A DNA stretch of 37,148 nt from a virus: positions 1-37,148 of IMG/VR virus record IMGVR_UViG_3300034023_000155, one strand, 5' to 3'. Both the position numbers and the translations under genes were made by a program. The notes beneath the pieces were generated by a model. The model did not search any database. It saw only the letters and a list, made by a program, of their open reading frames with translations, and had not been told where the DNA came from. This document shows positions 6,308 to 25,286 of the stretch, piece after piece. Numbering within the stretch: the stretch's first letter is position 1; the number at the start of each line of letters is the position of its first letter.

Positions 6308-8422
6308 TTACCTTGATTGTGGCATTCCGCGCGATGCAGACTGATTAGCGGCAAATATAGCATTCTTGTTTTTAGTAATAAACTGAATACCGCTTTGCGT
6401 ATCAATCGCACTCATGTTTTGTATTACCGTGCCATTATAAACTGTTTGTGGTTGACCGCCCATCATTGATGATAATTGATTGTTTGGAATGATTGTGCCT
6501 GCTGTGCGCGGAACAAATAATTCTGCGCCGCGTTCGCCAACAATAGATGGAACGCCAACTGGCGGTTCGCCACCATCGGCAAAAAATCCACCAAGCAACC
6601 CTGCGCCATTATTGAAATCAGTTGAACTGCTAAACAATCCAAAACCACCACCGCCACCACCGCCAAGCAAACCAAATAAACCACTCATTTGTGATTGCAT
6701 TGAAAAGCGCAATAAGTCTTTAATCATACTGCCAATTAAATTGCCAAATGAAAGTTTGCCGGTTTCAACAAATCTATCCATAGCCGATGTCATACTATTG
6801 GTCATGTTATTAAATACTTGTGCGCCAATAGCCGCGCTGTCTTGGGCGCGTTCAGTAAAGTTGTTGTATGCTTTATCCCATCCTGCTTGGAAAGTATTTT
6901 GCGCCCTTGCGTTGGCTTCTTCTGCTTCAATGTTATTCATTGCCGCAATAGCAAAATCATAAATCTGTTCGTCAGTTAGCAAGCCTTCTTTTTTCTTATC
7001 CAAGATGGCTTGTTGCAAATCATAATAACGCAATGCCAACTGAACTTGGGTATCGCTTTGACCTGCCATTGCTTTAGTTAGATTCAATCGTTCGGTAGCA
7101 ATTTCAAGATTTTTAGTTTCTAGTTTGTTTGCTTCACGCGCATCTTGTTTAAGTTTGCCTTTTGCTAATTCAGCATCCATTGATGCCTTCTGATAATTCA
7201 ATTCTGCAAGGGCTAAGTCTTTTGCCGTTGCCGCATCTATCATGCGCTTTTTCAAGGCTTCATCTTTTACCTTGTCATAAGCCCCACCTTTTTCAAATTC
7301 TAAATTAAGTTTTTGAACTTCGGTTAGGGTCTTGCCCATGTGTTCTGTTTCAGATTTAGTTAAAACTAATTTGCGTTCTAAATCTTCGTTTTGCTTTTTA
7401 ACTTGGTCTGCTAACTTTTCATTATCTTTAATTTTTTGCCTGTCGGCTTCTGCTTGTTTTGCTTCTTTAGCCGCAATCATTTTAGCAAGCCTAGCAATTT
7501 CTGCTTGACGGGCTTTTTCTGCTTCTGCCAATTCGTCTTTTGATTTAAATGGGCTAGTGCGTTGTTGCAATTTTAATGTGCCGGTATATTCTTCAAACCC
7601 ATCATCTTTAATTGGTTGAATTAAATCGCTTGAACCGCCAAATACATCGGTTAAAGTTTTTTTACCTTTGCCGCCATCTGCTTTATATTTATCTAAAACA
7701 GAACCGTCTTCAAACAACCCTGCTAATTCTTTCCTTGCCGCAACAAGCATTTGAACAAATCGTTCAGCACCTTGCGCCCATGCTTTAAACGCGCCGCCTA
7801 ATTCAACCGCAAAACCTGCTTTCATGTTCATAAAAATGCGGTCTAATATATCAAACGCATCCCCAGCATTTTTAAACGCTGTCGCTGTTCCTTCAAACGC
7901 GCCCTTTGTTTTTTCCAAGTCGGCGTTCATGCCTTTAATGTCAATGCCTTTAATTGCTTTACCAAACAATTCCATTGCCATCGCATTGCGTGTCATTGGA
8001 TTTTCTATTTGGGCAAGACTGTTTAAGGTTTTCCTAAACAATTCATCGGGGCTTAATTTTTTGATGTCAGATATTGAAACGCCAAGTTTGGCAAATGTTT
8101 CTTCGGCTTTCTTATTGCCTGTGCCGGCTTCGTCTAGTTTGTTGGCTAATGATGAAAATAGTTTGCCTACATTTTCGGCTTCACCACCATTAAGGGTTAA
8201 GGCTGTGGATAATTCCAAGACTGTTTCAACAGCCACTTCATTGGCTTTGGCAACATCATTGATTTGGTCGGCAAATTTTAAAGCAGTAAGCCCAACCGCA
8301 CTTAATGACGCGCCAGCAACCGTGGCAAATTGTTTCAAGGCATTATTAGCGATGCCCAAGTTTTTATTGAACTCCGCTGTATCAAGTCCTAAAACTACGC
8401 CTAACCTTGAAATAATTGACAT
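6308..8422 (-). CDS. Tail tape measure protein
   Basis: A 704-residue protein. The start (SIISRLGVVLGLDTAEFNKNLGIA) is typical of lambda-family tape measure proteins. Residues about 300-480 are a long charged helical region with coiled-coil character (KEAKQAEADRQKIKDNEKL and similar). Near the C-terminus are a Gly-rich stretch (about residues 577-600) and FADGGEPPVGVPSIVGERG, the common tape-measure end motif. It sets tail length. At roughly 0.15 nm per residue a tail near 100 nm is expected, so a siphovirus morphology is inferred. Confidence 0.92.
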   Translation of the reverse strand: MSIISRLGVVLGLDTAEFNKNLGIANNALKQFATVAGASLSAVGLTALKFADQINDVAKANEVAVETVLELSTALTLNGGEAENVGKLFSSLANKLDEAGTGNKKAEETFAKLGVSISDIKKLSPDELFRKTLNSLAQIENPMTRNAMAMELFGKAIKGIDIKGMNADLEKTKGAFEGTATAFKNAGDAFDILDRIFMNMKAGFAVELGGAFKAWAQGAERFVQMLVAARKELAGLFEDGSVLDKYKADGGKGKKTLTDVFGGSSDLIQPIKDDGFEEYTGTLKLQQRTSPFKSKDELAEAEKARQAEIARLAKMIAAKEAKQAEADRQKIKDNEKLADQVKKQNEDLERKLVLTKSETEHMGKTLTEVQKLNLEFEKGGAYDKVKDEALKKRMIDAATAKDLALAELNYQKASMDAELAKGKLKQDAREANKLETKNLEIATERLNLTKAMAGQSDTQVQLALRYYDLQQAILDKKKEGLLTDEQIYDFAIAAMNNIEAEEANARAQNTFQAGWDKAYNNFTERAQDSAAIGAQVFNNMTNSMTSAMDRFVETGKLSFGNLIGSMIKDLLRFSMQSQMSGLFGLLGGGGGGGFGLFSSSTDFNNGAGLLGGFFADGGEPPVGVPSIVGERGAELFVPRTAGTIIPNNQLSSMMGGQPQTVYNGTVIQNMSAIDTQSGIQFITKNKNAIFAANQSASRGMPQSR

Positions 8423-21971: not shown

Positions 21972-22140
21972 CGTTTAACCTTTCAGCCAATTCCTTTGCT
22001 TCCTTTGCGCTATCAAAATACCCGTGGTTAGTGTTCTTGTTTGATAAGCCATATTTAACCGTTCCATCGGCTTTGTAATACTTAGCAATAAACCATTCGC
22101 CCGATTTGATGCAATAGTTGTCTAATTTAAGCCACTTCAT
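21958..22140 (-). CDS. Small hypothetical protein
   Basis: A 60-residue protein whose sequence (LDNYCIKSGEWFIAKYYKADGTVKYGLSNKN...HGYFDSAKEAKELAERLN) looks like a small beta-sheet followed by one amphipathic helix. It overlaps the neighbours on both sides, so it is translated within the replication operon. No function known. Confidence 0.55.
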   Translation of the reverse strand: MKWLKLDNYCIKSGEWFIAKYYKADGTVKYGLSNKNTNHGYFDSAKEAKELAERLNDGKV

Positions 22141-22549
22141 GTGCCATTGCTTCCTGTGCGTATTTCAAACTAATTTCGGGGAAATTCTGTGGGTTGTCAA
22201 TGATGCGTGTTGCCCATGCGCGGTAATTGGTCTTTGGCTTCAGTTTCTTTGCAACAAATGTATTTAATTCTTCTACATGCTTTTTGTTTTCTTCATAATT
22301 AACTGGCGATGGCAATGCAAAGTAAACATCTTCCCTTGGTTTGCATAGGGCAATGATGTCAGCAGGCTGTGGCAACTTGTTTGGGGTGTCTGTCCATACA
22401 TCAAGGGCTTTTGCTACAACGCTAAATTCAAAGCGTTCTAATTTATGCCACCATATACGCAACATTTCCTTTTCGGGTGCGCCTTTGTTGTATATAGCAA
22501 AGACGGCAACAATCATGTCTTTAAATGCCAATTTGTCTGCATCAATCAT
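22127..22549 (-). CDS. Helicase loader/inhibitor-like protein (G39P-like)
   Basis: A 140-residue protein. The opening block (AFKDMIVAVFAIYNKGAPEKEMLRIWWHKLERFEFSVV) has the I-W-W-x2-L and repeated aromatics of the G39P/loader-inhibitor group. The C-terminus is a proline-containing polar tail. In SPP1, G39P delivers the replicative helicase to the origin-bound initiator. Here it would recruit host DnaB to the DnaA-box region upstream. It is two genes from the replication initiator-like gene. The match is by pattern and should be tested by profile search. Confidence 0.55.
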   Translation of the reverse strand: MIDADKLAFKDMIVAVFAIYNKGAPEKEMLRIWWHKLERFEFSVVAKALDVWTDTPNKLPQPADIIALCKPREDVYFALPSPVNYEENKKHVEELNTFVAKKLKPKTNYRAWATRIIDNPQNFPEISLKYAQEAMAHEVA

Positions 22550-23418
22550 TTTTTATCCTTTAATATCATTCCATAATTATTAACAACATTTTTAATAATT
22601 ACATTTTTATTTTTTATTAGTTTGTTTTTTTTAAACGGCGAATAATCAACATGATGATGCCATCTATTAAACTTCCAAACAACTTTAGCAACATCGGGAT
22701 GTAAATCTGCCAACATTTTTGATTTATTTAATGTTCCCTCATTTTTGTAAAATTCTTTTGTATTGCCACCTGACATTCTTTGCGTTGTTACTTTGCCACA
22801 TAAAAAAGCATTAAATTGAATAGTGCAAAACCCATCTTTTAAAACACGCAAACATAAATCCGTATCTTCGTTATATCTTCCACGCCAACGATAGGGAATG
22901 TTATTTTGAATAAGCAAACATGAATAAATGCGTGTGTTTAAAATAAATGGCGCAACTTTGTCAGTTGATTTACAAAATGAATAATAATTAAATCCTGATA
23001 TATAAACATTTTCATATCTATCAACAAAATCTTCAGCCGCTTTAAATGTTGCGCCGCTTCTAACAGGAACTTTTAAATTCCTATTTAATCGGTGAAAATC
23101 ATCTATGTTGTCATCTAAAACCCAATGTCTTTTATGACCGTTTTTTATAGAATGTTCCCATGCAAAATTTCTTGCCGCACCCGGTCCTTTGCTTCTAGTA
23201 AATCCTAAATCATCGCAAGTATTATATTCATCAAGATATTTTTTAGGCAATATCAGAATTTTTGATTTATCAATTACTTTTGCATATTGTTCAAATTCTG
23301 CTTCTTCAACAATAATTGAATAATTAACATTCATTTTTTCCAACGCTTTGCTAGTCAATCTTGTTTCCCATCTTCCTTTTGAAACAATATAGATTGGATA
23401 ATTAGGGTTCATTGACAT
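22546..23418 (-). CDS. TET-associated-type (TAGT/GREB1-like) glycosyltransferase
   Basis: About 290 residues; the start is MSMNPNY (ATG 23418) or MNPNY (23412), with no clear Shine-Dalgarno sequence. The sequence has the TAGT/GREB1 C-terminal landmarks: YPIYIVSKGRW, GPGAARNFAWEHS, HWVLDDNIDDF (DxD-like sugar-nucleotide site), RYNEDTDLCLRVLKDG, and FLCGKVTTQRMSGGNT. In other phages this family is proposed to add sugars to oxidised pyrimidines. No TET/JBP oxygenase is adjacent. It overlaps the 83-residue gene upstream and looks AT-richer than neighbours, suggesting transfer. The substrate is unknown. Confidence 0.8.
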   Translation of the reverse strand: MSMNPNYPIYIVSKGRWETRLTSKALEKMNVNYSIIVEEAEFEQYAKVIDKSKILILPKKYLDEYNTCDDLGFTRSKGPGAARNFAWEHSIKNGHKRHWVLDDNIDDFHRLNRNLKVPVRSGATFKAAEDFVDRYENVYISGFNYYSFCKSTDKVAPFILNTRIYSCLLIQNNIPYRWRGRYNEDTDLCLRVLKDGFCTIQFNAFLCGKVTTQRMSGGNTKEFYKNEGTLNKSKMLADLHPDVAKVVWKFNRWHHHVDYSPFKKNKLIKNKNVIIKNVVNNYGMILKDKK

Positions 23419-23653
23419 ATATTTTTGCCGAATTAACACCACGGGTTAATTTTGGATGCCAAATACTTTTTGTTTTTTCAGTTATTTTTTGGTTTATTAA
23501 ATTGGCAAATTCAAGCATTGATTCTTTACTGTCAAACCTAACGATTATTTTTGCATAAGGTTCTTGTTGTTCTTGAATAAATTCGGGCATATCTTTCCAT
23601 TCGGTAAAAACAGGCGATTCCAAATCATCAAACAAATTATGTGAATCAATCAT
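23402..23653 (-). CDS. Conserved small phage protein
   Basis: An 83-residue protein. It has an acidic start (DDLESPVFTEWKDMPEFIQ), then YAKIIVRFDSKESMLEFANLI and KTKSIWHPKL near the end. From memory this EW..MPEF ... SIW.P pattern recurs in phage genes close to ParB-like or DNA-modification genes, but no function is established. It is directly upstream of the glycosyltransferase, so they may be linked. Confidence 0.5.
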   Translation of the reverse strand: MIDSHNLFDDLESPVFTEWKDMPEFIQEQQEPYAKIIVRFDSKESMLEFANLINQKITEKTKSIWHPKLTRGVNSAKIYVNEP

Positions 23654-23661
23654 ATAGTTTC

Positions 23662-24342
23662 CTAAAATGGGTTCATATCAATAACGGGCTGTTCATCTTG
23701 CCAACGCCCTTGATTTAAGTATGTTGCAGGATTTGGTATAAATTGCCCATCATTCCTGCGCCATTGGTCTGATTCCTTTTGCCATGTAAGTGCAGGCAAT
23801 ACATCATCAATTCGGGCTTTAGTCTTAGACCAGGACTTTGCCGCCGCATCTTTACCAACCTTTTTTGGGTATGCTTGCCAAAATTCTTCAAAGCCATTGT
23901 CTAGCGATTTATCGCGAATAGGTTTACTTGCCTTAACTAAACTAGCCTTACCTATACTAACCTGTGCTTCCACTTTGGCAACATCTTGGAAACATTGTGT
24001 TTCCATAGTGTAAACATTGTTGTCTTTTAACGATAATTTAGCCTTTTCATCAATGTAAACGCTAGGTTTATATCGGTCTTTTTGAATAAGGTTGTGAATC
24101 TTCCAATGCTTAATTACACATACACCACTTTCAAACGGTATGACAAAATTCTTTGCCATCAATATCTTTAAATCATCATCCGCGCAACCAATCATTCGCT
24201 GTATTTTTTTAGCGTTATTTATAAATCCATCATCATCGGCACGCATTGATAAGTGAAAATAAAGCGATTGTGTTGAACATGGCATATCTAAAAAAGCATC
24301 GCTATCAATGATAGTTTTTGCAAACATTCTGCGTTCAGCCAT
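23662..24342 (-). CDS. Replication initiation / replisome-organiser-like protein
   Basis: Start set at MAERRMFAK (226 residues), preceded by GGGGGAAAGAA; earlier in-frame codons lie within a structured leader. The N-terminal 90 residues (FAKTIIDSDAFLDMPCSTQSLYF, RMIGCADDDLKILM, CVIKHWKIHNLIQKDRYKP) fit the winged-helix domain of phage replication initiators. The C-terminal part (FEEFWQAYPKKVGKDAAAK, then NPATYLNQGRW) is DnaD/DnaT-like. It lies next to five DnaA boxes and upstream of a helicase-loader-like gene. A role in origin unwinding and helicase loading is inferred. Confidence 0.8.
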   Translation of the reverse strand: MAERRMFAKTIIDSDAFLDMPCSTQSLYFHLSMRADDDGFINNAKKIQRMIGCADDDLKILMAKNFVIPFESGVCVIKHWKIHNLIQKDRYKPSVYIDEKAKLSLKDNNVYTMETQCFQDVAKVEAQVSIGKASLVKASKPIRDKSLDNGFEEFWQAYPKKVGKDAAAKSWSKTKARIDDVLPALTWQKESDQWRRNDGQFIPNPATYLNQGRWQDEQPVIDMNPF

Positions 24343-24348
24343 TTCTTT

Positions 24349-24441
24349 CCCCCAAAAAAAAGGGGCTACAACTACTAACTCCGATGTTTTAAATCGGTTG
24401 GTGGAACGGTCTAGTAACCGCCAGTTAGTATGTGTAGCCCC
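24349..24441 (-). promoter_or_regulatory. Three-way-junction leader with U8 tract before replication gene
   Basis: Arms 24362-24379 and 24424-24441 pair at 16 of 18 positions. Between them two hairpins fit end to end: CCGAT/ATCGG (24381-24397) and TGGTGG/CCGCCA (24399-24423, with one G-T pair). On the minus strand the arm ends CCCC then eight T residues (24354-24361), then the GGGGG that begins the ribosome site of the 24342 start. This looks like an intrinsic terminator/attenuator. CCCC can alternatively pair with the GGGGG. A role in controlling the replication gene is inferred. Confidence 0.7.
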
Positions 24442-24450
24442 ACTAGATTT

Positions 24451-24468
24451 AATCGCCACCACGCGATT
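24451..24468. promoter_or_regulatory. Hyphenated palindrome, possible operator
   Basis: AATCGC-N6-GCGATT lies between the candidate -10 (24474-24479) and the leader structure, near the predicted transcription start. It could be a binding site for a regulator, possibly the encoded initiator. No protein binder is known. Confidence 0.4.
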
Positions 24469-24473
24469 TGTGA

Positions 24474-24502
24474 ATCTTAATTTATCTAATTTAACTTTGC
24501 AA
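24474..24502 (-). promoter_or_regulatory. Candidate promoter of replication gene
   Basis: On the minus strand TTGCAA is followed after 17 bases by TAAGAT. Transcription would begin near 24467 and produce a leader of about 125 bases containing the three-way junction. The -10 match is 4 of 6. The remaining gene-free DNA up to the DnaA boxes is AT-rich with GCGTTTT-like repeats but holds no other feature I can support. Confidence 0.4.
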
Positions 24503-24628
24503 GCGTTTATTTACAACCCCATTTTAGCCAAAAACACCTGTTTTAGCACTTAAATCATGCCAACCAAGGGGCTTTTTAAGCGTTTTGGCGCGTTTTGTAA
24601 TTTACTTACATAAGTGCATTACCCCCCA

Positions 24629-24723
24629 TGTGGATAACGCGTAAAAAATGTGGATAATTTTTGTGGATAAGTGCTTCAAAACTGTGGATAACTTTTTGCC
24701 GTAAACATAAAAACTGTGGATAA
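24629..24723. promoter_or_regulatory. Cluster of five perfect DnaA boxes, likely replication origin
   Basis: TGTGGATAA (reverse complement TTATCCACA, the strongest E. coli DnaA box) occurs five times in one orientation at 24629, 24649, 24662, 24683 and 24715. The flanks are AT-rich and the replication gene lies just beyond. This is a bacterial-type origin in a phage that has no polymerase. Host DnaA binding, with the phage initiator and loader, is inferred. Confidence 0.8.
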
Positions 24724-24725
24724 CT

Positions 24726-25073
24726 TTACGGGGTTAAATAAGCAGTAATGGCGTTTTTTGCGTCATCAAATCCATAACAAACCACCGACATATACCCAAG
24801 CAAAGTTGCCATCCCCATAAATTCTTTTTGGTTTTCCTGCAACTTGCCGCCCTTAATTTTCATTTCAATGAACATCCCATGCCAACCATTTTTAGGAATC
24901 ATTAGGAACAAATCGGGAACGCCTGCAACGACACCTTCGGCTTTTAACTTGACGGCTGTTCCAATATGTCGTGCGCCGCCGTTTGGAATTGCCCATAAGC
25001 ATTTGGCATATTTTGGGTATTGGTAGCGAAACCAAGTAACGGTTGCGACCTGTTCAGCGTGTTCAGTTGTCAT
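24726..25073 (-). CDS. VRR-NUC domain nuclease
   Basis: A 115-residue minimal VRR-NUC protein. Visible motifs are AIPNGGARH (N31 to R35), GVVAGVPDLF (D54), the MFIEMKIKGGKL core (E70, K72) and Q79/Q82. VRR-NUC enzymes cut structured DNA such as replication forks or flaps. It is the first leftward gene, ending three bases before the outermost DnaA box. Standalone VRR-NUC genes are common in phage replication modules. Confidence 0.9.
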   Translation of the reverse strand: MTTEHAEQVATVTWFRYQYPKYAKCLWAIPNGGARHIGTAVKLKAEGVVAGVPDLFLMIPKNGWHGMFIEMKIKGGKLQENQKEFMGMATLLGYMSVVCYGFDDAKNAITAYLTP

Positions 25074-25122
25074 GCGGTTATTTTACCATTAAAAAATAAA
25101 TGCAAAATAATTCAAAATTTTG

Positions 25123-25151
25123 TTGTATTACAGAAAAAAATAGTTTAATCT
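25123..25151 (+). promoter_or_regulatory. Early promoter P1
   Basis: TTGTAT, 17 bases, TAATCT. It is preceded by an AT-rich block with AATGCAAAATAATT that is repeated before P2. It is followed by GAAAGGTGG, a weak version of the leader seen after P2-P4. Confidence 0.45.
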
Positions 25152-25210
25152 GAAAGGTGGCTTACATTTTTATTAAATAAAAAATAAATGCAAAATAATT
25201 AAAAAAAGTG

Positions 25211-25239
25211 TTGTATTACAATAAAAACAGGTTTAATAT
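25211..25239 (+). promoter_or_regulatory. Early promoter P2
   Basis: TTGTAT, 17 bases, TAATAT, then GCAGTTGTGGTTG. The upstream AATGCAAAATAATT element repeats that of P1. The leader leads into AAAGGAAACT and the start of the 25287 gene. The shared pattern with P3 and P4 supports a real set. Confidence 0.6.
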
Positions 25240-25286
25240 GCAGTTGTGGTTGTTAAACACATAAACGGAAATTAAAGGAAACTATT

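Follow-up and report, generated by a model that had tools for sequence, protein, structure and literature searches.

A putatively exchangeable DnaA-box module and a candidate regulatory leader RNA in the replication region of an uncultivated freshwater phage

Introduction

In phage lambda the iterons lie inside the initiator gene, the arrangement that we propose here for an uncultivated phage, and the composite origins of plasmids such as P1 (oriR) and pSC101 join iterons for the plasmid's own initiator to boxes for host DnaA, as also appears to be the case in this phage. In rep, the initiator gene of Lactococcus phage Tuc2009, the repeats occupy the linker that follows the DNA-binding domain, and the record of this gene carries the annotation 'contains origin of replication'. 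Few leader RNAs of phages are known to us, and we know of no lambda counterpart of the one described below. Host DnaA also acts close to the replication promoters of lambda, where it footprints two sites by the pO promoter and stimulates transcription at ori-lambda (PMC3985674).

The phage considered here is of freshwater type and is represented by a 37,148-bp IMG/VR record with a mean GC content of 39.5%, analyzed over its whole length (the window). Its nearest named relative is Methylophilaceae phage P19250A (TerL 77%, portal 73%, VRR-NUC 63%), from which we infer that the host is likely a betaproteobacterium, and probably a Gram-negative member of the Methylophilaceae. No tRNA was found with ARAGORN. 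The contig ends (17–641 and 36522–37148) form a direct repeat of about 627 bp, with 89% identity between the copies and a 162-aa ORF inside; the divergence marks it as a duplication and not as an overlap left by assembly.

The replication region resembles each of the described systems in part. With Tuc2009 it shares a homologous initiator N-terminus (Rep is 47.8% identical over residues 1–153, 153 aa) and the placement of repeats in the linker, but upstream it has in addition an array of DnaA boxes and a leader RNA with pseudoknots, its iterons are spaced by 11 bp whereas the strongest repeat of the Tuc2009 rep gene has a lag of 15, and the probable host is Gram-negative. With lambda it shares DnaA sites near replication promoters (PMC3985674), and its loader-like protein has lambda P as its best fold match, although the initiator N-termini are unrelated and lambda has two box-like sites rather than one array of five perfect boxes. 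It departs from P1 oriR and pSC101 in that some 610 bp separate the array from the iterons, and in that the array is missing in many relatives and can face either way. P19250A has a related initiator C-terminus and a related loader-like protein, but neither a DnaA-box array nor a match to the leader RNA model was found in it.

Results

A cluster of five perfect DnaA boxes

Five exact copies of the DnaA box TTATCCACA are present on the minus strand (TGTGGATAA on the plus strand) at positions 24629–24637, 24649–24657, 24662–24670, 24683–24691 and 24715–24723, with start spacings of 20, 13, 21 and 32. The whole window contains six exact matches, the sixth being isolated from the array at 8204–8212, against 0.37 expected from shuffles, none of which reached six; the box-cluster score is 10, compared with a maximum of 6 among 60 shuffled 37-kb sequences. 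The first-pass annotation had described five boxes in one orientation at these positions and spacings, and this description is confirmed, with a count far above chance.

The array is situated between a gene for a VRR-NUC domain nuclease (24726–25073, minus strand; PF08774, E 2e-11) and a leftward operon headed by a DnaD-like initiator. The alignment of relatives defines a larger module (24510–24735, minus strand) in which the boxes are accompanied by conserved downstream blocks: GG-TAA immediately after the last box, CAAAACGCTTAAAAA at 24573–24587, GGCATG, and AAAACAG followed at a short distance by TTTTTGGC. Rfam searched at a relaxed threshold placed SQ2397 over the array region, but at 19.8 bits, where the gathering score is 100, this match was taken as chance.

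The boxes had also been said to be flanked by AT-rich DNA, which is incorrect: the flanks are 38–41% GC, equal to the genome mean, and no AT-rich unwinding element of the kind expected at an oriC lies directly beside the boxes. The only AT-rich parts hereabouts are the array itself (32.6% GC) and a divergent intergenic region 350 bp away (25074–25286, 21.6% GC), and the weakest duplex within 24.4–25.3 kb is at 25.08–25.24 kb, past the VRR-NUC gene. This intergenic region holds a duplicated 63-nt promoter-like unit on the plus strand (25090–25152 and 25178–25240; 84% identical, spacing 88), and units resembling it are also present ahead of 25920 and 26436. There is no match to the IHF consensus WATCAANNNNTTR within 15.45–25.36 kb, a consensus that may differ from that of the actual host, and near the array there is a single trio-like TAA and no DnaA-trio repeat. 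The cumulative GC skew, suggested earlier as a check on the origin, does have its minimum near 24.9 kb, but skew tracks gene strand and the turning point is explained by the change in gene strand; it was therefore rejected as independent evidence for an origin.

Conservation of the array among relatives

The initiator, the nuclease, a box-pair pattern and RNA motifs served as queries for gathering relatives, and duplicates were merged. Twelve phages, namely the phage of the window and L004, L007, L008, L085, L088, L089, L103, L044, L294, L468 and L472, have four or five boxes on one strand, with offsets that recur from phage to phage. The offsets are 0, 32, 43, 65 and 76 in L004, L007, L008, L085, L088, L468 and L472; 0, 32, 43, 55 and 66 in L103; and 0, 32, 43, 66 and 86 in L044 and L294, while L089 has four boxes. 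The window is the only carrier with five perfect boxes, its relatives having TTATGCACA, TCATCCACA, TAATGCACA and ATATCCACA at identical or neighboring box sites (the affinity order of TTAT boxes was taken from PMC5835720). A conserved block of about 200 bp extends past the boxes, and in L044 and L294 the entire array block has the opposite orientation with respect to the initiator.

Within five relatives of equal spacing, which are kin, the box core ATxCACA is invariant (30/30) compared with 26/40 for the spacers (p=1.5e-4). Most of the array-carrying relatives are close kin, so that conservation partly reflects shared ancestry. These comparisons nevertheless indicate that the array is under selection, and because the box core and the offsets are conserved while the spacers drift, it is likely that host DnaA binds it. 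That the boxes are selected sites of host type adjoining the replication operon, as the annotation supposed, is thus supported.

The array is not shared by all related phages

The annotation went further in regarding the phage origin as built from the five boxes, a proposal that fares poorly against the distribution of the array. In 11 relatives of 33–38 kb (near genome length) there are no two copies of TTATNCACA near each other anywhere, and several of these genomes have the same initiator family as the window. L005 encodes a 96%-identical initiator and has the same leader RNA, yet lacks the array, and its nuclease gene runs directly into the promoter. An oriC would be expected to accompany the same replication genes, and the array does not do so in L005 or in the 11 long relatives; together with P19250A, these genomes indicate that related phages replicate without it. 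The array is also kept alongside initiators with differing N-termini, these being DnaD-like, DUF1376 (L088, PF07120) or Lin1244_N (L103, PF14297), and it therefore does not consist of binding sites for one phage initiator; the possibility that the boxes are iterons of the DnaD-like initiator was rejected because array and initiator type are uncoupled. Given its absence from L005 and the 11 relatives, its inversion in two others and its tolerance of initiator-domain swaps, we conclude that the array is probably not the origin itself.

A candidate origin within the initiator gene

The initiator predicted by the annotation at 23662–24342 (minus strand, 226 aa) is upheld as a DnaD-like protein by its match to PHROG 8489 (E 2e-77). 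We prefer the ATG at 24342, located after the leader RNA, over an upstream GTG at 24462. Its predicted structure is too poor for a structure search (mean pLDDT 58.6).

The linker of this gene contains five tandem 11-bp iterons (23965–24019, minus strand), identified by repeat analysis and lying between the N-terminal domain and a conserved C-terminal segment, with TAGG/GGTTA-rich repeats coming next. As 11 is not a multiple of three, repetition in the protein does not explain the repeat. In the window alone the repeat is not significant against synonymous-codon shuffles, and the case rests on the relatives: a lag of 11 at gene position ~322 is the best lag in 13 of 14 DnaD-like relatives, and it beats all 40 synonymous-codon shuffles in 11 of the 14. 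L105, which has a DUF1376 initiator, carries a different 11-bp repeat in the linker. The core origin is therefore likely, on these repeat patterns, to be the iterons within the initiator gene, in the style of lambda and Tuc2009.

The helicase-loader-like protein

A loader-like protein had likewise been suggested at 22127–22549 (minus strand, 140 aa), and its predicted fold and profile matches are in keeping with the suggestion. The AlphaFold model (mean pLDDT 81.8, pTM 0.48) has as its best VIA match 9oa1_Y, lambda P with DnaB (Z 7.6, 2.1 Å, 68 residues), the next best being at Z 5.0, although helical domains can reach such Z values by chance. Foldseek places lambda P at E 0.18 and returns nothing below E 0.001, and the top profile match is the 'replisome organizer' of PDB entry 1no1 (E 0.02), which we take to be SPP1 G39P. 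Each of these matches is weak alone, but together they are supportive of a role as a loader.

Like the initiator, the loader-like protein swaps its N-terminal domain while keeping its C-terminal part (L044:1774–2235, L117:6256–6684, L106:6259–6687). The operon also includes a TET-associated glycosyltransferase (22546–23442, minus strand; PF20691), which suggests that the phage DNA is modified.

A predicted structured leader RNA ahead of the initiator

Folding and covariation predict a structured leader RNA of about 115 nt at 24354–24469 (minus strand), comprising helices P1, P2, P3, P3a and P3b and two pseudoknots. The 3′ end of P2 is followed by U8 (24354–24361), which is predicted from the sequence to be an intrinsic-type terminator, and 11 nt separate the U-run from the initiator ATG. 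A sigma-70-like promoter, TTGCAA-17-TAAGAT (24474–24502, minus strand), reads in the direction of the RNA and the initiator. Neither this promoter nor the branched terminator was flagged in simple scans for such elements, because the hexamers match at 8/12 positions and side helices interrupt the stem.

Several observations argue that the structure is conserved. The minus-strand segment 24354–24469 has a folding z of −5.2 relative to shuffles, and an alignment of 14 sequences contains both-side changes in 25 of 38 pairs, with covariation that was reached by 0/500 shuffles. The covariance model found many relatives outside its training set (e.g. L006, L090, L095, L105, L106, L109, L117 and L123), and in a model-based alignment of 28 sequences 93.8% of cells pair. 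Pseudoknot 1, which is absent from the covariance model, is 96.4% paired with 32 double-change cells, and pseudoknot 2 covaries (CTAGT/ACTAG, GAGTA/TACTC, GGGTA/TACCC). The RNA is found in dozens of related phage contigs. Rfam 15 at its gathering threshold yields no match for it in the window and eight relatives, and no description of it was found in the literature, of which the coverage was partial.

The RNA keeps a largely constant place in the operon. Most relatives have a similar TTGNNN-17-TA..T element about 6 nt before it, and the ATG of the first gene is usually 12–18 nt past the end of the RNA model. That gene is usually an initiator of the DnaD-like, DUF1376, Lin1244_N or PHROG-16167 type, and occasionally a methylase or other gene. 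At the same operon position there are other structured RNAs (L089:3620–3780, L085:5590–5750, L033:4860–4990, L046:4280–4381 and L011:4870–4990), in each of which the 5′ loop is complementary to sequence farther along and a U-run is present; these are possibly variants of the same regulator.

The leader RNA probably controls the initiator. When the growing transcript is folded, the strands of the pseudoknots are initially able to pair in an alternative nested fold, which the terminator displaces later, and this modeled order of folding makes an attenuator or switch plausible; alternatively, the RNA is predicted to be a terminated small RNA. We consider the chances balanced that it is the first of a new family of cis-regulatory RNAs by which phages gate replication, possibly as a switch or timer for read-through into the initiator. 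The family would extend across a large group of phages with differing initiators, in some of them beside a mobile DnaA-box module.

Discussion

The reading that we favor, to which we give about an even chance, is that the array is an optional, exchangeable DnaA module on a replication region whose core origin lies elsewhere, with an accessory role in initiation or its control. Host DnaA would assemble in an ordered complex on the five boxes, all of which face the same way, the phage initiator would bind the 11-bp iterons inside its own gene in the manner of lambda O or Tuc2009, and the lambda P/G39P-like protein would deliver host DnaB. From about 610 bp away, DnaA would aid initiation through strand opening, helicase recruitment, or an action on the promoter of the leader RNA and initiator, for which the lambda sites near pO are a precedent, and the terminator of the leader RNA would probably gate the amount of initiator made. 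Some observations speak against this reading. A distance of 610 bp is long for a composite origin, and a strict geometric partnership sits poorly with the two relatives in which the block is flipped; in addition, there is no strongly AT-rich unwinding element abutting the array, and in unrelated contigs the neighbors of arrays are more often terminase genes than replication genes.

Two other readings also give the array a part in the initiation or expression of replication, and we consider both unlikely. The array could itself be a DnaA-dependent, oriC-like origin, used for the first rounds before phage initiator is made. The clustering of boxes beyond chance would fit this, as would the conserved block of about 200 bp past the boxes with a G-rich stretch and TAA directly after the last box, the retention of the array when the initiator changes, and the ability of such an origin to work in either orientation (L044, L294). 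It is opposed by near-complete relatives and L005, the latter with the same initiator, in which the array is missing, by flanks that are not AT-rich, by the presence of one trio-like TAA only, and by the lack of an IHF consensus near the array. Array-bound DnaA could instead control transcription, repressing or blocking read-through from the VRR-NUC gene and activating or repressing the RNA-initiator promoter. The array is 127–220 bp upstream of this promoter, within reach of leftward transcripts, and DnaA-stimulated transcription at ori-lambda and the DnaA sites by pO are in keeping with such a role, but these distances are long for direct activation, the unit of promoter, RNA and initiator is common without any array, and two carriers, L044 and L294, have the array in the opposite orientation.

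The first-pass annotation had offered DnaA titration to block host initiation as its alternative. The array would then act as a decoy or datA-like element that titrates or inactivates host DnaA. Five perfect high-affinity boxes in the window would suit a decoy, as would the five- to ten-box arrays of many unrelated phages, which are not tied to replication genes. As the main role, though, titration is disfavored, and we regard it as very unlikely: mismatched boxes are kept at fixed positions in relatives, which a decoy would not need, and datA needs an IHF site, of which no consensus match is nearby. Five boxes per genome are few, moreover, against the roughly 200 DnaA molecules per origin of E. 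coli (PMC5835720), so that any effect would have to await the accumulation of many phage copies.

The array alone is not exceptional, since DnaA-box arrays occur in many unrelated contigs. Arrays of at least five boxes are present in 37 of the 120 contigs listed for one spacing pattern, most of them unrelated to the window phage. A general helical-phase rule for phage arrays was considered by comparing 32-nt box pairs (at least 120 stretches) with 27-nt pairs (112), and it was not shown (37/120 among the matches listed for 32 nt versus 23/112 for 27 nt, p=0.10). Replication genes were not found beside the arrays in unrelated contigs, where terminase large subunits are far commoner among the neighbors and dominate; five- to ten-box arrays are close to terminase large subunit genes in L198, L219, L228, L247, L268, L296, L311 and others. 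No survey of DnaA-box arrays across phages was found in the literature, as far as it was covered, and such arrays are widespread in uncultivated phages and little described in the part of the literature searched.

These comparisons correct the tempting shortcut that a cluster of DnaA boxes is an origin. The replication region appears instead to be composed of separately exchangeable modules, these being an iteron origin, a DnaA block that comes and goes and can be flipped, and a structured RNA that is tied to the promoter of the operon rather than to one gene. If this is true, nature would have provided in the DnaA block an add-on that couples phage initiation to the host's replication starter, and the RNA would be a new and widespread regulator of phage replication.
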